From Tsukamurella sp. PLM1 (GTDB lineage: Bacteria; Actinomycetota; Actinomycetes; Mycobacteriales; Mycobacteriaceae), in the NCBI RefSeq assembly GCF_023168325.1, contig NZ_AP025688.1, forward strand, positions 2,852,001-2,916,000: a stretch of 64,000 nucleotides of DNA. The letters run 5' to 3'. Under the pieces are notes generated by a model, which was given only the letters and a program-made list of their open reading frames with translations, was not told the DNA's origin and made no database searches. The translations under genes and the position numbers were made by a program. Positions 26,116 to 56,708 of this stretch are shown in pieces. Within the stretch, counting starts at the first letter, position 1. Each line of letters opens with the position of its first letter.

Positions 26116-26719
26116 TCAGGCCCGGACGGCCTGCGCCAGGAAGGGCGACAGCACCGAGGACACCTCGCGCGCGGCCTCCTCCGGCCCCTCGATGGGCATG
26201 GTGAGGTGGCTGAAGGCCAGGCGCACGAGCACGCCCGCCGCGATCTGCGCCTCGGAGCGCCGCACCTGCGCCCAGCTCATCGCGAGGATCTCCGCCAGGC
26301 CGTCGGAGGCGCGCTTCATGATCGGCGTACCGTCGATGGTGACGATGCCCATGAGGTCGCGATGGGGGTCCGGACCCACGATGTTGAGCACCACCGGGTC
26401 CCCCATGCCGATCCGGAACACGCCGTGCATGGCGTCCTGGACGGCCTCGTCGATCTGCCCGGGATGCGCGTCGATCCGCTCCTGCACGTAGGCCAGCAGG
26501 CCGTCGACGAACCGCGTGACGTACGCGACCGCCATGCCCTTGCGGGATCCGAACTCGTTGTACAGCGTCTGCCGGCTGACGCCGGCCTCCGGCCACGGCG
26601 GCCATGGTGACCGCCGACCAGTCGTGGCCACGGAGGAAGCCGCTCACCGCGTCGAGCGCCTGATCACGCACCGTGTGCTTGGGCGCGGAATCGACGTCGC
26701 GCCCGACGAGGACGGTCAT
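26116..26719 (-). CDS. TetR-family regulator of the alkane operon (AlkU-type), one frame break
   Basis: The N-terminus reads [20 protein letters not shown], then HDWSAVTMAAVA. The second half of the HTH, EAGVSRQTLYNEFGSRKGMA, lies in another frame, so one surplus G near 26590 (or two missing bases) separates them. The joined protein is about 200 aa with a ligand-binding domain ending LSPFLAQAVRA. Its ATG overlaps the rubredoxin reductase stop (ATGA at 26716-26719), so it is the last gene of the alk operon, as in Rhodococcus and Gordonia alkB clusters. It probably represses the operon until substrate is present (inference). Confidence 0.8.
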
Positions 26720-27898
26720 CGCACGACCGCCGTGGCGATCTGCTCGGACAGCTCACCGCGCACGGCGCGCAGTTCCTTCGGCCGGCCCATCGCGACAGCG
26801 CCGACGAGGAGCCCTCCCTGTTGCAGCGCGCGAAGAACGTACCGCCAGTCGCTCCGTTCACCGAGCCGTCCACCTCCAACGTGTCGTCCGCCGCGGGCCA
26901 ACCCGCGAACTGGAGCACCGCACCGAACTGGTTCGACCAGCCCCACGGCACCGTGGGGGCGGGCATCTCGCCGAGGAGCACCTGCGCCACCGCCGTGCCT
27001 GATCCTGCGCAGCCGACCAGTTCTCGGCGCGGTAGGTGCCGCCCTCCAGCGGATTGGGCACCCGTGCGCAGTCACCGATGGCGTACACGTCGTCGGCGGA
27101 TGCGCGATACCGCTCATCGACCAGGATACCGTCGTCCACCCGCACCGCCAGTCGCTCCGCGAGCCCGGTGTCGGGGGTGGTCCCGACGGCGACGACCAGC
27201 AGGTCCGCCACGACCGCGGCGCCGGCGGGCAGCCCCACCGCGACGTGATCCGGCTCGACCGTGATCTCGCCGGGACGGACGCCCAACAGCAGGTCCACGC
27301 CGGCGCCGCGCTGGAGGGCGGCCAACCGCTCCCCGATCGACGGGGGCACCACCCGAACCAGCGGCAGCGGCGCAGGCTCGATCACGGTGACCTTCGCGCC
27401 GAGCTTCGCGGACGCCGAGGCGACCTCGGAGCCGATCAGGCCGGCGCCGAGGACGACCACGCTGCCCGCCCGCTCCAACTCGTCGCGCAGGCCCGCGGCG
27501 TCGGCGAAGTCGCGCAGGTACTTCACCCGCGGCCCGGGCTCGAGGCCCGGGAGGTGCCGGGCGGCGCCGCCCGTGGCCAGCACCAGCGAGCCGTACTCGA
27601 GGCCGGCACCGTCGGACAGCTCCAGGGTGTGCGACGCGGTGTCGCCCCCTGTGACCGCCACGCCGGTGCGGAGTCCGATTCCGGCCTCGTCCCAGTGGGT
27701 CTGCGGCTTGATGAGGGCCTTCTCGACCGCCATCCCGGTGAGGAGCACGTCCTTGCTCAGCGTGGGCCGTCGGTACGGGAGGTGCGGTTCGCGCCCGATG
27801 AGGGTCACGTCCCCGCCGAATCCGCCGGTCCGCAGCGCCAGGGCCGCGGTGGCGCCCGCGACGCCCGTGCCGACGATCACCACACCGTCGGTGCTCAT
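26716..27898 (-). CDS. rubB: rubredoxin reductase of the alkane hydroxylase system, two frame breaks
   Basis: This NADH:rubredoxin oxidoreductase passes electrons to rubredoxin for AlkB. The FAD motif is [18 protein letters not shown] at residues 5-22, the NAD motif [20 protein letters not shown] near 145-164, and the second FAD motif is [13 protein letters not shown]. After NWSAAQDQA the frame must shift near 27000 to [17 protein letters not shown], and again near 26818 to [17 protein letters not shown]. Two added bases give 394 aa, the normal family length. ATG 27898 overlaps the upstream rubredoxin stop. Confidence 0.87.
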
Positions 27899-28083
27899 GC
27901 CCGCGACACCTCGACCATTTCGAAGTCCGCCTTGGCGGCTCCGCAGTCGGGGCAGGACCAGTCGTCGGGGATGTCGTCCCAGCGGGTGCCGGGCTCGATG
28001 CCGTCCTCGGGCCAGCCCTCGGCCTCGTCGTACTCGAAGCCGCACTGCAGGCAGCGGAACAGCTTGAAGGGTGCATCACTCAT
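27895..28083 (-). CDS. rubA2: rubredoxin (second, AlkG2-type)
   Basis: This 62-aa iron protein has two C-x2-C pairs binding one Fe: [20 protein letters not shown] and [13 protein letters not shown]. It shuttles electrons from the reductase to AlkB. The longer C-terminus (EMVEVSRA) distinguishes it from the first rubredoxin. The stop overlaps the rubB start. Gene order alkB-rubA1-rubA2-rubB-tetR matches the classic actinobacterial cluster. Confidence 0.93.
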
Positions 28084-31357: not shown

Positions 31358-31765
31358 TCAGCCGACGAGACGGCGGCGCGCGTCGACGCCCTGCGCGAGC
31401 ACGAACAGTACGAACTCCCGCAGGGCGTCGCCCGCGAGCGTCCCCGCCGGGAAGCTGTAGTGCAGCACCAGATCGGCCGAGATCTCGCGTTCCATCAGCC
31501 GCAAGGACCCGAACTGCACGCCTTCGGCCACGGTCCGGACGTCGTCACGCAGCTCGTCCGTCAGCGCGAGGTCCCAGGCCACCACCTGGGTCAGCGAGTA
31601 CACGTCCACCTCGCGCGCGAGCTCGAACACCTGCACCGACGCCGGGGTGTCACCGAAATCGACCAGCACCGCCTGGTTCTCGTCACGGCGCAGCACGACC
31701 CCGTCGGCCAGCGCCGACTCGAGCCGTGAGCGCAGCGCATCGAGCCGCGGGTCCTGCGTCGTCAT
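31358..31765 (-). CDS. YbjN-domain protein
   Basis: This 135-aa protein starts [21 protein letters not shown]. The alternating pattern [21 protein letters not shown], then [20 protein letters not shown], then [21 protein letters not shown] resembles the T3SS-chaperone-like YbjN fold. Its function is unknown; such proteins are often general stress or stability factors. ATG 31765 overlaps the uppS TGA (31762-31764), so it is coupled to uppS. Confidence 0.6.
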
Positions 31766-32567
31766 TCGGCGCCGCCGAACCGGCGGTCGCGCTTGGCGTA
31801 CTCCAGGCACGCGTCCCAGAGGTTCCGCCGGTCGAAGTCCGGGAACAACGTGTCCTGGTAGACGTACTCGGCGTACGCGCTCTCCCACAGCAGGAAGTTC
31901 GAACTCCGCTTCTCCCCCGAGGGACGCAGGAACAGGTCCACATCGGGCATGTCCGGTTGGTACAGGTACTGCTGGAAGGACTGCTCGGTGATGCGGTCCG
32001 GGCTGATCTCCCCGCCGCGGCGCGGCGCGCGATCTCCCGTGCGGCATCGACGATCTCGGCCCGTCCGCCGTAGTTGACGCACATCGTGAGCGTCATGACG
32101 GTGTTGTCCTTGGTCAGCTCCTCCGCGACCTCGAGCTCGCGGATCACGCTGGCCCACAGGCGCGGCCGCCGTCCGGCCCACTTCACCCGGACGCCCATCT
32201 CGTGCATCTCGTCGCGGCGGCGGCGGATCACGTCGCGATTGAACCCCATGAGGAAGCGCACCTCCTCCGGGCTGCGCGACCAGTTCTCCGTCGAGAAGGC
32301 GTACGCCGACAACTGCTTCACGCCGAGCTCGATGCAGCCGCAGACCGTGTCCATCAGGACGGCCTCTCCGCGCTTGTGCCCCTCGGTGCGCGCCATCCCG
32401 CGTTCCTTCGCCCAGCGGCCGTTGCCGTCCATCACGAGGGCCACGTGGTTCGGCACGAGCTCCGCGGGGATCTCCGGCGGCGTCGCGCCCGAGGGATGCG
32501 GATCCGGCGGCCGGACCGCGACCGATGCCGGTGGCGTCTTCGACCTACCCCGCCGCAGTCCCGGCAC
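31762..32567 (-). CDS. uppS: isoprenyl (decaprenyl/undecaprenyl) diphosphate synthase, one frame break
   Basis: This cis-prenyltransferase makes the lipid carrier for peptidoglycan and arabinogalactan. [17 protein letters not shown] carries the catalytic Asp and the pyrophosphate-binding region, followed by [31 protein letters not shown] and [17 protein letters not shown]. After IARRAAA the frame must shift at the CCCC run 32010-32013 to reach [20 protein letters not shown] and a normal end. GTG 32567 has GAGGAGG six bases upstream; restored length is 268 aa. The gene is essential in mycobacteria, so the break is almost certainly a sequence error. Confidence 0.93.
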
Positions 32568-32580
32568 CGTCGACCTCCTC

Positions 32581-33341
32581 TCACCGGCCGCGAGGGCCGG
32601 ACTGTGCGGCGCGTGCCGCTCGATCATGGGCAGCGACCGCAGCTGCCGCCCCACGTGCCACTGTAGGTGCGCCGCGGCGAGCCCGTTCGCCTGCCTGCGC
32701 ACCCGGTCCGTCGTGGTCTCGGCGAACGCGAAATCGGCCCGCGCGAGCGCGGCCATCAGGTCGAGCACGCCCTGGCTCGGGACGGCCGATCCAGGCGGGC
32801 GGCAATGCACGCACACCGCGCCGCCGGCGGCCACGTGAAAGGCCCGGTGCGGCCCCTCGTCGCCGCAGCGGGCGCAGAGCGTGAGCGCCGGCGCCCAACC
32901 CGCGGCGTCCATGGCGCGCAACAGGAACGAGATGAGCACCAGGTCCTTCTCGCGCAGGCCGGACGCGATCGCCCGCAGGGCCCCGACGGTGAGCCGGTGC
33001 AGTTCCGGCGCCGGCGCCCGCTCCTCGCCCGCGAGCCGCTCCGCAGTCTCGATCACGGCGCACGCGGTGGTGTAGCTGCCGTAGTCGCCCGCCAGATCGC
33101 CCGAGTAGGCGGCGATGGAGTGCACCTGCGTCACCATGTCGAGGTTGCGGCCGGGGTGCAGCTGCAGGTCCACGTGCGCGAACAGCTCCAGCCGGGCGCC
33201 GAACCGCGACCGCGGCCTGCGCACCCCCTTCGCAACGGCGCGGACCAGGCCGTTCTCCCGGGTGAGCAGCGTGAGGATGTAGTCGGCCTCCCCCAGCTTG
33301 TGCTGCCGCAGCACCACAGCGCTGTCCCGGTACGACCTCAT
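32581..33341 (-). CDS. recO: DNA repair protein RecO, probable 3' frame break
   Basis: This protein loads RecA with RecF/RecR on gapped DNA. The N-terminal OB-fold starts [20 protein letters not shown], and the zinc finger is [10 protein letters not shown] ... VCVHCRPPG, followed by a helical C-terminus ([18 protein letters not shown]). As read, the frame continues in phase into uppS. One added base just before 32590 gives the TGA at 32581-32583, immediately ahead of the uppS ribosome site, and 253 aa. ATGs at 33350 and 33353 are alternative starts. Confidence 0.9.
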
Positions 33342-40148: not shown

Positions 40149-40924
40149 TCAGTCCGGCGGCGTGCCGGACCACCTGTCTGTCATCACTCCCAGAGCACCC
40201 AGCGCGACGGCGGCGGCGGTGGAGGTCCGCAGCACCGTCGGGCCGAGGAGCGCGGGCTGCGCACCCATTCCGACCAGGGCATCCAGTTCCTCGGGGCTGA
40301 TTCCGCCCTCCGGCCCCACCACGATAACGACGGTTTCGGTTACTGAGAAGTCAACCTTACCCAGAGGCACCGCCGAACCCTCATGCAAGACAACTACATT
40401 CGCATCCATACTGGTGAGTAGTGGAACGAGTTCCCGTGTGGTCACCAGGTCGTGGATCTCTGGAACGTACGCTCGCCGTGCCTGTTTCGCGGCCGACCGC
40501 GCGACCGCGCGCCACCGGGAGACGCCCTTCTCCGCCTTGCCGGCGCCCTTCCCACCGGCCCCTCCGCCGTCCCACCGGGAGACACAGCGAGCCGCCTGCC
40601 ACGGGACGATCGCGTCGATACCCGCCTCGGTGGCGAGCTCGACCGCCAGCTCGGACCGGTCGGATTTCGGCAGCGCCTGCACCAGCACGACGCGGGGCGA
40701 CGCGGGCGGCACCGTCCACGCCTCGGAGCAGCGGACCGTCACCTCCCCCTGCCCACCGCGGTCGCCTCGCACCTTGCGAGGCCGCCGGCACCGTCGGACA
40801 GGACGAGTTCCTCGCCCACCCGGACTCGGCGCACCGCGGCCGCGTGCCGGCCCTCGTCTCCGGCGAGGACGTACTCCTCGCCGGGCGCGGGCAGCGGGTC
40901 CGCGAGGAAGACGGTGGCCGCCAC
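40149..40924 (-). CDS. rsmE: 16S rRNA m3U1498 methyltransferase RsmE, one frame break
   Basis: This SPOUT-fold enzyme methylates U1498 of 16S rRNA. The N-terminal part (MAATVFLADPLPAPGEEYVL, then GDEGRHAAAVRRVRVGEELV) joins, after one added base in the CCCCC run 40745-40749, to EVTVRCSEAW and VVLVQALPKSDRSELAVELA. The SPOUT knot is VVIVVGPEGGISPEELDALV and PTVLRTSTAAAVALGALGV. GTG 40924 is the start and restored length is about 258 aa. It lies 6 bases after the dnaJ stop, the usual dnaJ-rsmE order. Confidence 0.92.
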
Positions 40925-40930
40925 TCGGGT

Positions 40931-49966: not shown

Positions 49967-51243
49967 TGAGCAGCGCCCCCGCCCTCCTGCGTCTCGCCAC
50001 CGCGGGTTCCGTCGACGACGGCAAGTCCACCCTCGTCGGGCGCCTGCTCTACGACACGAAGTCGGTGCTCGCCGACCAGATCGACGCCGTCACCCGCGCG
50101 TCGGTCGACAAGGGCCTCGACACCCCGGACCTGTCGTTGCTGGTCGACGGCCTGCGCGCCGAGCGCGAGCAGGGCATCACGATCGACGTGGCCTACCGCT
50201 ACTTCGCGACGCCCAACCGGTCCTTCATCCTCGCCGATACCCCCGGGCACGTGCAGTACACCCGCAACACGGTGTCCGGCGCCTCGACCGCGCAGGTCGT
50301 GATCCTGCTGACCGATGCGCGCAAGGGCGTCATCGAGCAGACCCGCCGGCACGCCGCCGTGCTGTCGCTGCTGGGCGTTCCGCGCCTCGTGCTCGCGGTC
50401 AACAAGATCGACCTGGTGGAGGACCCCGCATCGGTGTTCCAGGAGATCTCCGCCGAGTTCCGGGCGCTCACCGGCTCGCTCGGGTGGGCCGACGATGCCG
50501 TCCACGCGATCCCGGTGTCGGCCCTGCACGGCGACAACGTCGCCTCGCGCTCGGACCAGACGCCCTACTACGACGGACCGTCGCTCATCGAGCACCTCGA
50601 GTCGATCCCCACGGACCCGGACACGAAGCCCATCGGCTTCCGCTTCCCGGTGCAGTACGTGATCCGGCCCCGCACCCCCGAGTACCCCGACTACCGCGGC
50701 TACGCCGGTCAGGTGGCGGCGGGCACCGTCGACGTGGGCGACGAGGTGCTCGTGCTCCCCGCCGGCACCCGGAGCCGGGTCGAGCGCATCGACACCCCCG
50801 ACGGCGAGCTCGCCTCCGCACACACCGGGCGCTCGGTGACGGTCGTGCTCGCGGACGACGTGGACGTGAGCCGCGGCGACGTGATCGTCTCCGCCGCCGA
50901 CGCCCCGGAGCCGCGCCAGCAGTTCGAGGCGACGGTGTGCTGGCTGGCCGAGAAGCCGCTGCGCATCGGCGCGCGGCTGCTGCTCAAGCACGGCACCAAG
51001 ACCACGCAGGCGATCGTCGGCGGGCTGGACGCCGTGTTCGACGAGCAGAACCTCAGTGTGGGCACCGGAGAGACACTGGAGCTCAACCAGATCGGCCGCA
51101 TCTCCATCCAGACCGCGGAGCCGATCGTCGCCGACGACTACGACGTCAACCGGGAGATGGGCTCGTTCCTGCTCATCGACCCCGCCGGCGGCAACACCCT
51201 CGCCGCGGGCCTGGTCGGGAACGCCCTGTCCCACCTGGTCTGA
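49966..51243 (+). CDS. cysN: sulfate adenylyltransferase subunit CysN (GTPase)
   Basis: This 425-aa translation-factor-like GTPase couples GTP hydrolysis to APS synthesis by CysD. G1 is TAGSVDDGKSTLVGRLLYDT, G3 is LADTPGHVQYTRN, G4 is AVNKIDLVED, followed by two beta-barrel domains. Unlike M. tuberculosis CysNC it has no fused APS-kinase domain, consistent with direct APS reduction by the upstream CysH. It is the last gene of the operon, ended by a strong hairpin. Confidence 0.95.
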   Translation: MSSAPALLRLATAGSVDDGKSTLVGRLLYDTKSVLADQIDAVTRASVDKGLDTPDLSLLVDGLRAEREQGITIDVAYRYFATPNRSFILADTPGHVQYTRNTVSGASTAQVVILLTDARKGVIEQTRRHAAVLSLLGVPRLVLAVNKIDLVEDPASVFQEISAEFRALTGSLGWADDAVHAIPVSALHGDNVASRSDQTPYYDGPSLIEHLESIPTDPDTKPIGFRFPVQYVIRPRTPEYPDYRGYAGQVAAGTVDVGDEVLVLPAGTRSRVERIDTPDGELASAHTGRSVTVVLADDVDVSRGDVIVSAADAPEPRQQFEATVCWLAEKPLRIGARLLLKHGTKTTQAIVGGLDAVFDEQNLSVGTGETLELNQIGRISIQTAEPIVADDYDVNREMGSFLLIDPAGGNTLAAGLVGNALSHLV

Positions 51244-51253
51244 GACCGAACGA

Positions 51254-51290
51254 AGGCACCCGCCGACTCCGCCGGAGTCGCCGGGTGCCT
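51254..51290 (+). terminator. hairpin terminator of the sir-cysH-cysD-cysN operon
   Basis: AGGCACCCG (51254-51262) pairs with CGGGTGCCT (51282-51290), with an inner GACTCCG/CGGAGTC stem, followed by TTTCG. It lies 10 bases past the cysN stop. The short T-run is weak but usual for GC-rich actinobacteria. Confidence 0.85.
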
Positions 51291-51449
51291 TTCGCGCCGC
51301 ACTCGGGTCCTGTCCACCCCGGACAGCCACCTCCGGAACGCCGTGACCGTTCGTCCCCCGCGCCGCGCCGAACAGCGACCCGTGCGTTCGTACCCCTGCC
51401 AGAAGCCGTGCCTTCGACAGGGGCTCGAACGTCCCCCGCGCGACGCCGA

Positions 51450-51489
51450 CTCCCCCACTGCACGCCAACGTCTCCCCCACCGCACGCCA
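51450..51489. repeat. two near-identical 18-bp direct repeats, period 22
   Basis: CTCCCCCACTGCACGCCA at 51450 and CTCCCCCACCGCACGCCA at 51472 differ at one base. A more diverged related block begins near 51428. They lie in the 256-base gap between cysN's terminator and the 3' end of the FtsK-type operon. I see no gene in this gap. Confidence 0.7.
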
Positions 51490-51546
51490 CGCAAGGGACC
51501 GCCCGATTCGGACCTCGCGCTTATCAGTTTGGCGGTCTGCCGTTGG

Positions 51547-52278
51547 TCAGAAGTACCCGACTACTCTTCCGTCCCGGAGAGCGATGAAAACCGGCACGGG
51601 CTTCCCCGCAACCTGCTGAACAATCGGTTGCCCGACGACCGCTCGAGCACCGCCGGAAGCGGGGTAGATTATCGACCTGTTCGCAAGCAGCTGACGCATC
51701 GCGACGACCTGGACAACTTCATTGCCCTGAGATGCCTGGCCCCGGCTCCACGCCTGTAGTTGTCGCACGGGATCTTGATTGGCGGTGTGAGTCCGGTACC
51801 AGATATAAGCGCCGGCCCCCAGAAACACGAGGAACACGAGCACTGGCTGTCCAGTGCAGGCAGCGACGATCAAGAAGAACAGGCTGAGACCAACGGCGAT
51901 TCCCGCGCCCCCGCCACTTGAGGTGGGAGGAGGCGCAATGGCGAGTCGGTACGAGTTCCGGCTGACGAACGGGGCGGACTCCGCGTTGACCGCCTGCGGG
52001 TACAGCCGCTCCATCTCGCGATCGAGCGCTGCGGGGTCGGGAATGGTCGTCATCTCCGATGGCACGCTGGCCGCGCTGAGCTCCGCAACAGATGCAGCCG
52101 CGATGTCGTCGAACATCCAGGACGGCATCGAGGTCGATGCCAGTGCATCTGTGATCGGACGTTCGTCGGCGACGAGACGATGCGCAGCGGCCTCAGCTCG
52201 AGCTGCGGATTCGATGGCGGCCGCGCCTTGCTGAGCAAGCCGAGCGCACACCTCCGCGTAGGAATCAAACATCGACAT
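51547..52278 (-). CDS. two-helix membrane protein of the FtsK/WXG-like operon
   Basis: This 243-aa protein starts MSMFDSYAEVCARLAQQGAA. Residues 1-105 form an acidic Ala-rich helical region, residues about 122-162 contain two adjacent membrane helices (GIAVGLSLFFLIVAACTGQ and VFLVFLGAGAYIWYR), and residues 165-243 form a beta-rich tail ending PVFIALRDGRVVGYF. No family is recognised. Its start overlaps the end of the FtsK-like gene by 14 bases, so it is the fourth and last gene of that operon and probably a membrane partner of the ATPase. Confidence 0.65.
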   Translation of the reverse strand: MSMFDSYAEVCARLAQQGAAAIESAARAEAAAHRLVADERPITDALASTSMPSWMFDDIAAASVAELSAASVPSEMTTIPDPAALDREMERLYPQAVNAESAPFVSRNSYRLAIAPPPTSSGGGAGIAVGLSLFFLIVAACTGQPVLVFLVFLGAGAYIWYRTHTANQDPVRQLQAWSRGQASQGNEVVQVVAMRQLLANRSIIYPASGGARAVVGQPIVQQVAGKPVPVFIALRDGRVVGYF

Positions 52279-54743
52279 GTGACCAATCGTGTGGAATGAA
52301 GAGGCGAGGGCTGTGAATCGCGAAGTCGGTCTCCGAATGCAGCACGAAGGTGCCCGGGTTCACCTGCTGTCGGTCCTTGCTACCGATAGTGGGGACCCGG
52401 TCGATGAGCCTGCCGTCCGCGACCCAGTAACGCACGGTCGATCTCACAAGTTCGGCCTGCTTCATCGGTCGTTCGCCGACGAATAATTTTGCCGCCAGGT
52501 CGTCCACCGACGCGGCGAACACCACCCCACCTGCGGCAGGGAGCGGATCACCGAAGGCGGACACAAGCGGGTCGGTGAGGTCCACGGCCCACAACGGCGA
52601 TAGCCGCGAGGCGCCGTCGGCAACCGAGCGCAGCCACGAAGTTTCGTGACCAGGAGCGCCACTACACCGATGCTGGCGCCGATGGATCTTGCGAGCTTCG
52701 TCCGGTCGGCCGCGTCCGGCGCGATGACGGCGACGATTCCGGCCGCAGCGGACTCGCGCGGGAGAAGGGCTTCGTGTTCGAGCACTAGGGAAGTCCCCAC
52801 GACGAGGTCGCCGCGCTCGATCGCCCCCGTCATGGTCGGGTCCTCGTTCGGATCGATACCGTCGGCCCCGGGGAACACACGTGGTGTCACCGCGGCGTAG
52901 TCGGTTCGCGCCGCATTCTCTCGGATGTCGTCGATGAGTTCGCGGTGGGTGGCGTCCGTGTCGATCAGGACCTGTCCGCGGCGAACCGTGGCATCGGTGC
53001 GCATGATCAACCGCCCCGGACCGGAGATGGCGGCGCCGGACCGGTCGCCAAGCATGGCGATGCTCGTGTCCTGATCGGACGGAAGAACCAACCGGACTGT
53101 CAGCTGATCGAAAATCGACTTGTTGCGCGCACCCGCCGAGACGTTCGCGAGCGACTGACTCGCGAGAATCAGGTGAAGTCCCGCCGCTCGCCCCTGGCGC
53201 GCGATGGCCTGGAGGACCGATCCGGCTTCACCGCCGTACTCCGGATCCTGGAGCGTCGCCTGGAACTCGTCGATCACGACGACGAGCCGCGGCACCCGGC
53301 CTTCGGGATTCGCGGCGTTGTAACGCACGATGTCCTTGAAGCCCGCGCGCTTGAATCGCGAATACCGGCTGGACATTTCGTTAGCCACCCAGCGGAGTAG
53401 TGAGAGCGTAGTGGCCTGATTCGACTCGACGGCCGCAATGTCGATGTGAGGGAGTACGTGGTCGCGGCGGACGTAGGTCGCGAACTCGACCCCGTTCTTC
53501 CCGTCGATCAGCACCATGCGCAGGTCCTCCGGAGGATAGCGGTACGCGAGACCACTCACGATCGTATGCAGCAGCTTGCTCTTCCCGGATCCCGTGCGCC
53601 CGACCACGATCGCGTGCGCATCCGGGGACTCCGCGTCAAGCCGCAGAACGAGCGGTTCGCGGGCCTCGTCCCTGCCGATCGGAGTACCGATCGCTCCGTC
53701 TGCCCGCGTCCCATGCATGGACTCCCGATCCAGCAGCGCTTCACGGAATCCTGTCCGGCGCTGGGCGTCGCGAAGCTCTTCGAGCACTGCCGACACTTCG
53801 GCAATCGCTGATTCCACCACTTCATTCGCGGGGCGGAGCTGGATCGATCCGTAGAGAAGCTCCGCGCCGTGGTGGACCATGCCCATGCCGCCGATGATCG
53901 TGCTGTTGGGAATAGCTACTTCCGCAAGGCCTTCCGGCTTCGCACCCGCGCCGATGCCTGAGAACACGCCTACGCGCGGCCCATTGACCATCACCTGCCA
54001 GAGCCGTTCGCGCAGCGCGTCGGGAAGACTATCCCACTCAGTGCACACAACGAGCAATGGCGTGATGGACGTCGCGTGTACCGACGCCTCCACGTCAGCG
54101 ATCGTCCGGCCGACGTGTTCGATCACGCGTGCGTTCGTCGAGATGATTTCCTGAACGTCGTCGATGACTCCGTCGAGATCGCGACGCGAGACCGCTACAC
54201 GCTCAACCAGTCCCGAGCGCGACAGCGGTGCGAGGGCGCCGAGATCGCTACCCATCGTCGCAGTGTCGATGACAAGGACTTTCGAGGCCGGGAAGCAGGA
54301 GATGAATGCGGCCGAGACGATCCCAAGAACATCGGTCCTGAAAGTTCTATCAGCGTCGACGACCAGCCTGGGGGCGGTCAGGAAGTCGCCGAACAGGAAC
54401 GGCGCAGGCGCACCGGGTTCCAGAAAGTCGAAGGGCTCGCCACCTGCCACACCCGACACGATCGCGCCGGCAGGACGAAATGTACCAACACAGACAGCAG
54501 AGAACGCAGTTGCGGCGTCGCGCACAGACCTGTCGCCGACCGCGGAGACCGCGGAACGGGGACCGAAGTCCGCCAACTCCTTCGCGGTTAGCGCTGCCGC
54601 GCTACGGAATCTCTCGTCTGCAGCGCGACGCTCTTGATCCGCTGCTGCTGTTGCGGCACGCCGCCGCTCGGCGAGACCGAGGCCACCGTCGACCTGAGAG
54701 CGAACAGGCTGCGGAGCCGCGCGCTCGGGCTCTCAGGATTCAC
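52265..54743 (-). CDS. FtsK/SpoIIIE-type (EccC-like) ATPase, two frame breaks
   Basis: The restored protein is about 826 aa. GTG 54743 overlaps the preceding stop (VNPESPSARLRSLFAL). A missing base between 54660 and 54720 leads into a coiled coil (AERRRAATAAADQERRAADE), then a domain resembling a degenerate ATPase module (KVLVIDTATMGSDLG, PLLVVCTEWDSLPDALRE) without a P-loop. The active motor follows: Walker A VVGRTGSGKSKLLHTI near residues 380-395, Walker B RLVVVIDEFQATLQ near 487-500 and ILASQSLANVSAG. A second break near 52640 links to SVADGASRLSPLWAVDLTD and a winged C-terminus. It has no membrane helix of its own. Protein or DNA translocation is possible. Confidence 0.8.
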
Positions 54744-55888
54744 GAAGAGTAGTCCTCGATCGCCTGGATCTTGCCGTCGATGTACGTGGTCAGCTCCTCG
54801 AACGGATCCGTTTCGAATTTTGCGAGCTGCTCCTCGACCTGCTCGTTGACGTGTCTGAACTTCTCGTCGCTCCAAGCACTTTCAGCATCACCCAGTGCTG
54901 TCTTGAGCTGCTCGTGCGTATCCTGGATCTGCTCCAGGAACTCTGCGATCGCCTTTTTGACCTGTTCCATCGCCTCGATGGTGACATTCGCGCCGTTCCC
55001 AGCCATGGTCGTTCCCCTTCCGTGAGAGCCGCCAGCGGCGCCCGTCGCCGCTCCGGTGTCGATCTGTTCTCGGTCGTCGCTCGTGTTCGTGGGTATCGCG
55101 GTCGACTCGCGGGCCGGCGGATCGCCCCGTGAAGCACTGCTCTGTGGCGAACCGTTCGGCAGTGAATCATCCGGCGGTGGATCGCCGCCCGCTGGCGCTG
55201 GACCACCGGACTCGAGAGCCTCGGAATCCGGACCGCTCCCGCCGGCCCGCACTGATTCCGTGGTCCGAGCGTGATAGCGCCGCGCGACCGCGATCGCCGC
55301 GGCCGCCGCGAGAAGAACTGGAACGCCCACGAGCACGAACGGCGCAGCGGCGGTGGCGGCAGCGGCGACTGAAGTGGCCGCTGCCGACGCGGTTCCGGTC
55401 AGAATTGCGGAGGCACCGAGAATCTGGCCCGCTTGGGCCGCGACGGGCGTCCCGACGGTGTGGAGATATGACAGGGCCGGCAGTGCCTGCTGCACAGCCA
55501 CTCCCCGCAGTATCAGTCGTCGGGTTCGGTATCCGCCAGCCATAGCAATCCGCTTGCCCAGCCACCTAAAGTCGCCGACGCTGTCGTCAGCGCGAAGGCG
55601 AGCCACGTCCTCGCGCTGTTGATCCCGCAATTCGCGCGCCTTAGCACGGAACGCTTGGTGCGCGTTCCATACGTCGCGGGTCGCTGCGATTGCGCCGACC
55701 CCTCGCTGTCCCAGGTTGTGCTGCCCGACATTGCTGTAGTCGCCGTGATGGTCACGGAAGGAGAGGTACGTCAGCGCGTCAACGAAGCCATGCTTCTGCG
55801 ACGCCCTTCGAGAACGGATCTTCTCGGTGAGCTCTTCGTCCCACTGCTCCACGGGTATCCGCACGATGTCACCCGGACGTAGCCTCAT
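54740..55888 (-). CDS. membrane protein with C-terminal WXG100-like helical hairpin (fusion or two genes)
   Basis: The frame encodes 382 aa. Residues 1-130 are charged and soluble, about 135-205 contain two Ala-rich membrane helices (APFVLVGVPVLLAAAAAIAV), and about 210-290 are a Pro/Ser/Asp-rich linker. The last 88 residues (MAGNGANVTIEAMEQVKKAI to IQAIEDYSS) form two helices with SAWSDEKF at the turn, resembling WXG100/ESAT-6-like proteins but with W-S-D instead of W-x-G. An internal ATG at 55006 with GGAAGGGG upstream could express the hairpin as a separate protein. Whether the fusion is real or reads through a lost stop is unresolved. Confidence 0.65.
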   Translation of the reverse strand: MRLRPGDIVRIPVEQWDEELTEKIRSRRASQKHGFVDALTYLSFRDHHGDYSNVGQHNLGQRGVGAIAATRDVWNAHQAFRAKARELRDQQREDVARLRADDSVGDFRWLGKRIAMAGGYRTRRLILRGVAVQQALPALSYLHTVGTPVAAQAGQILGASAILTGTASAAATSVAAAATAAAPFVLVGVPVLLAAAAAIAVARRYHARTTESVRAGGSGPDSEALESGGPAPAGGDPPPDDSLPNGSPQSSASRGDPPARESTAIPTNTSDDREQIDTGAATGAAGGSHGRGTTMAGNGANVTIEAMEQVKKAIAEFLEQIQDTHEQLKTALGDAESAWSDEKFRHVNEQVEEQLAKFETDPFEELTTYIDGKIQAIEDYSS

Positions 55889-56372
55889 CAAGTGCAATCA
55901 GATTCTTGGACGCGAGCAGGCGTAGTGACTCGAGCACGTCGATTTCGTCGCCACCGCTCCGCAGGACCTCAGCGAGTTCCGCGAGGGTGTACAGTCTCGG
56001 CGCCAATACCCAGACCGAGAATTCGAGCGGTGTGACCATCCGGAGGTCACCGTTCCGGTCAACCAGAACGTGCTGGACATCAGTCGATACCGCGGCAACT
56101 CTGCCGAGCGCCACGGCCTGAAATTCAGTCGCACGAGACCAGGCGTCCGCGAGGTCGACGACTAGGCCCCGTGACCGCGCTGCAGACAGGACCGTCGCAC
56201 CGATATCGGATCCACGGACGCGTCCGGGCCAAGAGACGATCAGCGACTCGAGATCGGGCCCGTCCGCCGGCACGTCGATCTGACGATCCCCCAGCCGGAA
56301 GACCACCCCGACCGCCTCGTCGCGGGTCCTGTAACCGAGAAACTGCCCCACTGTCAGTAGCTCCGAAGTCAA
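55869..56372 (-). CDS. unrecognised 167-aa protein, first gene of the FtsK/WXG-like operon
   Basis: TTG 56372 has GGAAGGGGAG about five bases upstream; the protein starts MTSELLTVGQFLGYRTRDEA. It appears to have a beta-rich N-terminal half (GVVFRLGDRQIDVPADG, VLVDRNGDLRMVTPLEFSVW) and a winged-helix-like C-terminus (LYTLAELAEVLRSGGDEI, LRLLASKNLIALDE). This could be a regulator or adaptor. No family is recognised. It overlaps the membrane/WXG-like gene by 20 bases. Confidence 0.6.
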   Translation of the reverse strand: MTSELLTVGQFLGYRTRDEAVGVVFRLGDRQIDVPADGPDLESLIVSWPGRVRGSDIGATVLSAARSRGLVVDLADAWSRATEFQAVALGRVAAVSTDVQHVLVDRNGDLRMVTPLEFSVWVLAPRLYTLAELAEVLRSGGDEIDVLESLRLLASKNLIALDEATSG

Positions 56373-56402
56373 TGGGCTCCCCTTCCATCCCTCAACGAAG
56401 AT

Positions 56403-56414
56403 ACAACATGTTGT
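56403..56414 (-). promoter_or_regulatory. ACAACATGTTGT palindrome within the FtsK/WXG-like operon promoter
   Basis: The perfect 12-bp palindrome lies in an AT-rich stretch 31 bases upstream of TTG 56372. On the minus strand, TTGATA (56417-56422) and TATCTT (56395-56400) could be -35 and -10 elements with 16 bases between, placing the palindrome inside the spacer where a repressor would block RNA polymerase. Assignment is by inspection only. Confidence 0.5.
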
Positions 56415-56489
56415 GCGTGTATCAATCGCAACACGAACAATCCTCTGTCCATCTCGGACGAAACCGGAGAGTGACGGAAATGGTGACGA

Positions 56490-56708
56490 CTATCGACCCA
56501 CTGGTTGCTCGCCGATCACGTATCGCTCAGCGCCATCTACGCTCTCCCACACCGCGATTCCATCACGCACGCGCGCCCGCAGCGGAGCCCCCCCGAGAAG
56601 TCCGCGGCCAGGTCGGCACCGGACCGACCGGACCGGAATCCAGGACCGCCTCCCGCACCTGATCCGCCACCAGGTGAATCTCGCTCTCGAGGTCGAGGGA
56701 TCGCGCAT
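56490..56708 (-). CDS. small hypothetical protein coupled to the Eis-like gene (frame breaks)
   Basis: An ATG overlaps the Eis stop (TGATG at 56705-56709 region). With one added base the frame reads SLDLESEIHLVADQVREAVL then DSGPVGPVPTWPRTSRGG. The annotated-frame end reads RARVRDGIAVWESVDGAERY and VIGEQPVGR. Neither half alone looks complete, so two small indels are assumed in a gene of about 72 aa. Function unknown. Confidence 0.45.
   Translation of the reverse strand: MRDPSTSRARFTWWRIRCGRRSWIPVRSVRCRPGRGLLGGAPLRARVRDGIAVWESVDGAERYVIGEQPVGR

Follow-up and report, generated by a model that had tools for sequence, protein, structure and literature searches.

Our analysis showed that four closely spaced genes of Tsukamurella sp. 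PLM1, which overlap one another on the minus strand, are a variant of the solo WXG/FtsK ('mobile T7SS-like') module described previously, and not a canonical type VII secretion system (T7SS). They lie at positions 51547-56372 of the stretch of DNA that was analysed, which is 64,000 nucleotides of contig NZ_AP025688.1 (2,852,001 to 2,916,000) and is hereafter called the window. The genes encode a 167-amino acid (aa) protein, a 385-aa frame, an FtsK-type ATPase, and a 243-aa protein, and the set looks to have been acquired horizontally as an island. What is new is the four-gene island with two membrane partners. With some reserve, we favour the reading that this is a self-contained, horizontally acquired module whose products make a membrane-docked single-motor translocase gated by a WXG-type hairpin.

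A first-pass annotation of the window had proposed an unrecognised operon of four overlapping genes. The four genes were confirmed at these coordinates and on this strand. The compact pairing of an EccC-like ATPase with a WXG-like hairpin was also upheld, and family searches found no EccB, EccD, EccE, or mycosin gene among the four. However, "unrecognised" was overstated, since units of this kind are already in print (PMC3482391, PMC11090510). The features identified are as follows.

55869-56372, minus strand: gene 1, 167 aa from a TTG start; no transmembrane stretch in the hydropathy scan and no noteworthy family match
54740-55897, minus strand: gene 2, a 385-aa frame with a hydrophobic N-terminal part and a C-terminal hairpin (open reading frame, hydropathy)
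54740-55006, minus strand: W-x-D helical hairpin, 88 aa from an internal ATG (match to a hairpin model; Pfam WXG100 sub-threshold)
54577-54743 (lower bound approximate), minus strand: likely N-terminal start of gene 3, with a GTG at 54743, in a frame that differs from the main ATPase frame (position; weak codon preference)
52465-54732, minus strand: main ATPase frame of gene 3, stop to stop, with a degenerate first motor, a single active motor, and the start of a degenerate third unit
52265-52663, minus strand: C-terminal part of gene 3, in a third frame (position, codon preference; homology unshown)
51547-52278, minus strand: gene 4, 243 aa, a hydrophobic stretch (peak at residues 133-151) followed by a tail; overlaps the end of the ATPase
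51286-56489 (bounds approximate), strand not assigned: inserted island holding all four genes (comparison with siblings, lower G+C)

The ATPase and its relatives

The ATPase matched Pfam FtsK_SpoIIIE with an expect (E) value of 1.1e-28. The best match of its motor among the curated NCBIfam profiles was EccCa (E 2e-34, profile positions 413-610 of 673). The EccCa score of 119 bits is far under the cut-off of 509, so the ATPase is not an EccC by that model; EccCb scored 63.5 bits. In a search of the PDB, the best match was 4nh0 (deposited as 'Cell division FtsK/SpoIIIE', 1.7e-29), which we take to be an EccC, followed by EccC5.

A single Walker A motif, GRTGSGKS, was found at residue 378 of the main frame, after a degenerate motor unit. 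This central motif and the profile alignment of the first unit point to a degenerate first motor and one active motor, as had been predicted, and the protein has room for three motor-like units at most. The hydropathy peaks of the main frame (residues 137-155 and 680-698) are at motor units only, and there is none in the C-terminal piece. No N-terminal transmembrane pair was found on the ATPase by the hydropathy scan, with the short N-terminal piece judged by eye. Also by eye, an Ala/Glu/Arg-rich stretch was seen near the N-terminus, adjoining a frame change, and may correspond to the coiled coil that had been proposed.

The ATPase had been annotated as one continuous protein of 826 aa, whereas we found its reading spread over three frames, and the pieces were searched separately for this reason. 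The main frame runs without a stop for 756 codons (52465-54732), and the first codon in it that could serve as a start is a TTG at 54576. Judging from its position, the GTG at 54743 is the likely start of the ATPase; it overlaps the stop of the 385-aa frame, yet lies in another frame. Codon preference showed a weak frame switch at about 54600, where every frame is below zero, and a clear one at about 52650. The start of the 243-aa gene falls inside the 3′ end of the ATPase.

Matches to the ATPase at E 1e-30 or better were found in 143 of 397 genomes of the order, with the PLM1 genome included, and in 142 of the 365 good-quality ones. A scan of genome contigs with the ATPase gave only two near-identical Burkholderia loci. 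Viral contigs were searched with the ATPase, with gene 4, and with an alignment of ten ATPase sequences, and yielded no relatives. We gathered 54 ATPase rows: 46 from 45 genomes, six from plasmids, and two from Burkholderia. Among them, L033 and L053 are pieces of one gene, L008 and L009 come from near-identical strains, and several of the loci are short; the fractions 40/54 and 42/54 given below are therefore not independent counts. With a strict pattern, one Walker A was found in 49 rows, none in four, and two in one. In the 49 single-motif rows the motif lies at 0.41-0.65 of the protein length, and 47 of these proteins are 811-1207 aa long. Each of the 44 genomes of the order examined has one Walker A in this ATPase open reading frame (ORF).

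A profile of 45 of the 54 relatives, with nine long or partial ones left out, aligned with the main frame (E 1.6e-87); the alignment begins in the degenerate first motor and ends at the start of the third unit. A motor tree of 71 rows placed the window among the active motors of solo ATPases, in a set of 55 (95/90) that is separate from the EccC/EssC motors. The scores of EccC motors on the family motor profile were given no weight, since the seed of this profile came from sequences that included EccC, EssC, and FtsK.

Hsp70 genes adjoin the relatives in L004, L042, L046, and L054, and TPR and GrpE annotations are present in L004. The arrangement of Hsp70, hairpin, FtsK, and transmembrane partner is a recurrent operon in actinobacteria (L004 3701-10571; L042 3601-8940; L046 7073-12138; L054 6946-12456). 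The ATPase of a Rhodococcus relative carries a TerD domain. VWA, WXG100, CARF, PP2C, kinase, and AAA genes surround a Caballeronia relative, which resembles the CoCoNuT III-A extension. A phosphorothioation-associated gene is near a more distant Methylobacterium relative, and some relatives sit on conjugative plasmids. Solo FtsK-like ATPase frames of about 810-860 codons were seen in family f15 (L058 7879-11027, L059 6920-9966, L072, L073, and L075). In these loci the overlapping partner has three hydrophobic stretches and no hairpin was found within 3.5 kb. They are perhaps a chromosomal relative with a different role.

The hairpin, its partner genes and the island

An 88-aa W-S-D helical hairpin terminates the 385-aa frame. 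Its own ATG is preceded by a GGAAGGGG sequence, and the hairpin may also be made as a free protein. Pfam WXG100 gave 22.8 bits for this tail of gene 2, below the cut-off of 27.3, with W-S-D in place of W-x-G. Of the four hairpin models tried, type D gave an E value of 2.9e-5 with the window hairpin, and the other three gave 0.038, 0.1, and 0.7. The type D model was then remade from five hairpins that lie near solo FtsK-like ATPases (L003, L005, L006, L057, and L067), with the window's own left out; the match was again 2.9e-5, against 0.15 for the best of 300 shuffles. By this match, the window hairpin is related to the W-x-D hairpins near similar solo ATPases. A PDB search with the hairpin gave weak, chance-like matches only (best E 0.15).

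Co-occurrence of the four genes had been put forward as a check; for ATPase and hairpin it was found in 40/54 loci, in which a hairpin of any of the four types lies within 3.5 kb of the ATPase. Of the nine family-f15 loci, six are among the 14 with no nearby hairpin. In f14 loci (L040, L043, L044, L045, and others), a type A and a type B hairpin gene, both small, lie side by side upstream of the ATPase, and such pairs could form a heterodimer.

Gene 2 had been described as a two-helix membrane protein ending in an ESAT-6-like hairpin. The hairpin was found, but the hydropathy scan gave one strong transmembrane stretch (peak at residues 184-202) and not two. There is no good coding frame by codon preference in about 55050-55320, between the membrane part and the hairpin, which makes their reading as a single protein provisional. 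A single-sequence structure prediction of gene 2 drew helices where the hairpin is expected, with a mean predicted local distance difference test (pLDDT) score of 42.4. A search of plasmids with gene 2 gave no relatives.

Gene 4 had likewise been taken for a two-helix membrane protein. Its membrane stretch is present; the scan found one strong transmembrane stretch, which by eye is long enough for two short helices. No convincing homologue of gene 4 was found, with one poor match among 150 genomes. This match, in G130 (30% over about 135 aa), was rejected as chance and has two stops inside. For gene 1, no convincing homologue was found in 297 other genomes, where the one match was spurious. 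It was in G105 (37% over 68 aa) and was rejected, being antisense inside a murB gene. Searches of plasmids with gene 1 and gene 4 and of phages with gene 4 gave no relatives. For gene 1, which had been described as winged, the structure prediction, also from the single sequence, had a mean pLDDT of 37.5; like that of gene 2, it was uninformative.

By position, gene 4 is the counterpart of the downstream genes of the relatives. In 42/54 rows, a downstream ORF overlaps the ATPase stop by 4-19 bases; of these 42 picks, the one in L054 is probably a mistake, and those in L006, L033, and L053 encode hairpins. Many of the downstream partners look helical, with zero to three hydrophobic stretches.

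The GNAT gene and cysN were present in all 16 genomes of the genus, with that of PLM1 included. The spacing between the two is 22-1974 bases in 14 of the 15 siblings and 5470 bases in the window, while in the fifteenth (G007) they are on different contigs. No DNA matching the four genes was found in the cysN-GNAT gaps of those 14 siblings, and the 243-aa protein is absent from all 15. On one side, sibling-like DNA stops at about 51243-51285. On the other, it begins again at about 56490-56532 in five siblings; in the remaining nine, this point is at about 56688-56708. From these points the insert is estimated at about 5.2-5.4 kb, and it contains just the four genes. The G+C content is 0.648 in 51300-56650 and 0.698 in the whole window. 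No direct repeat joining the island ends was found among the 20 of 32 repeat families shown, and the two tRNAs of the window lie far from the island. A stretch that matches about 56490-56686 of the window is common to five siblings (G001, G004, G009, G010, and G013). The cysN-GNAT gap (window 51244-56707) is variable among the siblings and may be an insertion hot spot.

Proposed mechanism and rival explanations

In the translocase that we favour, the ATPase would form a hexamer on the inner face of the membrane, anchored there by the gene 2 and gene 4 products and not by helices of its own. The hairpin would dock on the ATPase and gate or recruit it. The ring would then serve a conflict or stress response by moving a polymer, most likely protein, in the form of the hairpin itself or of a client that bears one; the polymer could instead be DNA. 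For gene 1 we suggest an accessory or regulatory role.

Several points weigh against such a translocase. The ATPase reading is interrupted twice, and the module would be dead if these breaks were real. The C-terminal piece, that is the third unit beyond the second break, gave no score on the relatives' profile. The branches of the motor tree are long, the window is a lone deep branch (best identity 40%), one chromosomal FtsK row falls in its set, and the Rothia relative L061 lies outside that set. Family searches of the four genes found no substrate, nuclease, or other effector. YxxxD/E is the C-terminal type VII export signal; it was not seen in the hairpin by eye and could lie on another protein. 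The roles of genes 1, 2, and 4 are guesses from position, for genes 1 and 4 because no homologues were found. Gene 4 matched the partner profiles weakly, with hhalign values of 0.0014 (transmembrane-bearing set) and 0.0007 (all partners) at probabilities of 7-11%, and with 0.12 for the f15 partners and 0.96 for the soluble ones. Six shuffled versions of gene 4 were run on two of these sets: on the transmembrane-bearing one they gave 0.093 or worse, and on that of f15 none did better than 0.12. The comparison left out 14 loci whose downstream ORF is spurious or of another kind, and the leaders of three were trimmed.

A tentative variant is that the hairpin is a fixed subunit and not a secreted substrate. 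Lying in frame with the membrane protein, it would tether and gate a single-motor EccC-type ring. If this is true, a derivative of the type VII motor that is non-secretory, or that extracts, would be spreading as an island of four genes.

We consider it doubtful that the module is an intracellular defence machine, in which the FtsK-type motor would pump or loop invading DNA and the hairpin would be a regulatory subunit, not a secreted client. The FtsK_SpoIIIE match agrees with this explanation, as do the PADLOC profiles SspH and mad8, which matched the motor (4.3e-36 and 2.4e-21), and the CARF, kinase, VWA, and AAA genes that accompany relatives, with the phosphorothioation-associated gene more distantly. 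However, the PADLOC matches are limited to the motor region, and the best NCBIfam profile is that of EccCa. Family searches of the four genes revealed neither a nuclease nor a DNA-binding family, and the hairpin and membrane partners point to the membrane.

The two frame changes within the ATPase would also suit a decayed remnant in which it is a pseudogene. The PLM1 assembly is one contig with a completeness of 83.88%, while the 15 siblings score 93-100%. We compared the 64-kb window with one sibling (G005), using sibling ORFs of at least 150 codons. The 144 sibling ORFs that matched include spurious antisense ones, and 31 matched the window in more than one frame. Among the named genes split against this sibling are uppS (31765-32623) over three frames at 94-96% identity, rsmE (40152-40927) over two frames, and a ferredoxin-reductase-like gene (26719-28069) over three. 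UppS is an essential protein. The host EccD likewise gave two matches that overlap but lie in different frames. It seems that small indel errors are numerous in this assembly. Because conserved genes of the window are split in the same way and UppS is essential, we treat the ATPase frame breaks as probable, though not proven, assembly indels. The main and C-terminal ATPase segments, moreover, retain a preferred coding frame (the N-terminal segment only weakly), and the Walker A is intact. A pseudogene is in our view improbable.

Another explanation is a satellite of the canonical ESX of the host, with the island hairpin or ATPase feeding the chromosomal ESX pore. An EccD gene, above the cut-off, was indeed found about 0.6 Mb away in the same genome. 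But the island has its own membrane proteins, and solo ATPases of this family are also present in Deinococcus and Caballeronia, which are not known to have ESX; such a satellite is quite improbable. Least credible is that the genes are part of a TraB/FtsK-type module for conjugation or mobilisation. Although the motor weakly matches the TraB and VirB4 profiles and some relatives are on conjugative plasmids, EccCa matched at 2e-34 against 2e-6 for TraB, and family searches of the four genes gave no relaxase or mating-pair match.

Whichever cargo the favoured translocase moves, the window holds a compact form of the module, made of a hairpin, a one-motor ATPase, and two membrane partners. Since the siblings have no counterpart at the island site, a comparison with and without it is possible. 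It could help to show which task such a motor performs: protein export, DNA movement, or defence of the cell. It also bears on what an EccC-type ATPase can do without the remaining type VII complex, and relatives of this ATPase are common in the order.

Comparison with known systems

Table 1 of PMC3482391 describes, in a footnote, 'solo WXG domains' with a YueA-like ATPase that has three HerA/FtsK domains of which only the middle one is active. Such solo sets are termed 'mobile versions of T7SS' in that paper. Section 10 of PMC11090510 describes the same kind of ATPase, with an N-terminal coiled coil, without membrane helices, and with WXG100 partners, and cites Anantharaman 2012 for stand-alone copies. 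A match of the operon to an already named system had been set as a refutation at the outset. It applies in part, as a description is in print, though no formal name was seen. In the literature searched, no experimental study of the solo WXG/FtsK module was found, and the descriptions are comparative genomics only.

No relaxase or mating-pair family links the four genes to a TraB/FtsK conjugation module. The type III-A CoCoNuT extension has VWA genes, a CARF nuclease, and a McrB/C core around WXG/FtsK genes, as described in PMC11090510. In family searches, none of these was found among the four genes of the window, whereas CoCoNuT-type genes are annotated in part around the Caballeronia relative.

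PMC11217815 sets T7SSc-j alongside types a and b and gives each of T7SSc-j a membrane-bound ATPase of four NTPase domains; its introduction describes EccC alike. The window set shares with T7SSa-j a helical hairpin partner and a motor that is closest to EccCa among curated profiles. By the criteria given in that paper, it differs in that its ATPase has no N-terminal membrane pair and has one Walker A, not four C-terminal NTPase domains. None of its four genes matched an EccB/D/E/MycP, EssA/B, or EsaA/B family. The set fits none of T7SSa-j.

Closer likenesses are found among the relatives' loci. The TerD-linked FtsK locus of Rhodococcus (L003) shares the W-x-D hairpin type and the motor family, but its ATPase has an N-terminal TerD domain and its hairpin is a separate gene. 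The four Hsp70 loci (L004, L042, L046, and L054) share the hairpin, the single-Walker-A ATPase, and a small downstream partner with one transmembrane stretch. They differ in having an Hsp70 gene in the operon and a hairpin of type C.

With the solo WXG/FtsK module, the window set shares an EccC/EssC-related ATPase that has no N-terminal membrane helices and in which an active motor follows a degenerate one. It also shares a WXG-type hairpin adjoining the ATPase and a mobile, stand-alone occurrence, with no counterpart in 14 of the 15 siblings. The arrangement of three units with the middle one active fits the central Walker A and the degenerate first unit, and the rest of the third unit would complete it. 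The four genes include no VWA, CARF, or nuclease family, and the hairpin motif is W-x-D and not W-x-G. Beyond the described module, the window set has a membrane part that shares its frame with the hairpin, a downstream membrane partner, and the 167-aa gene.

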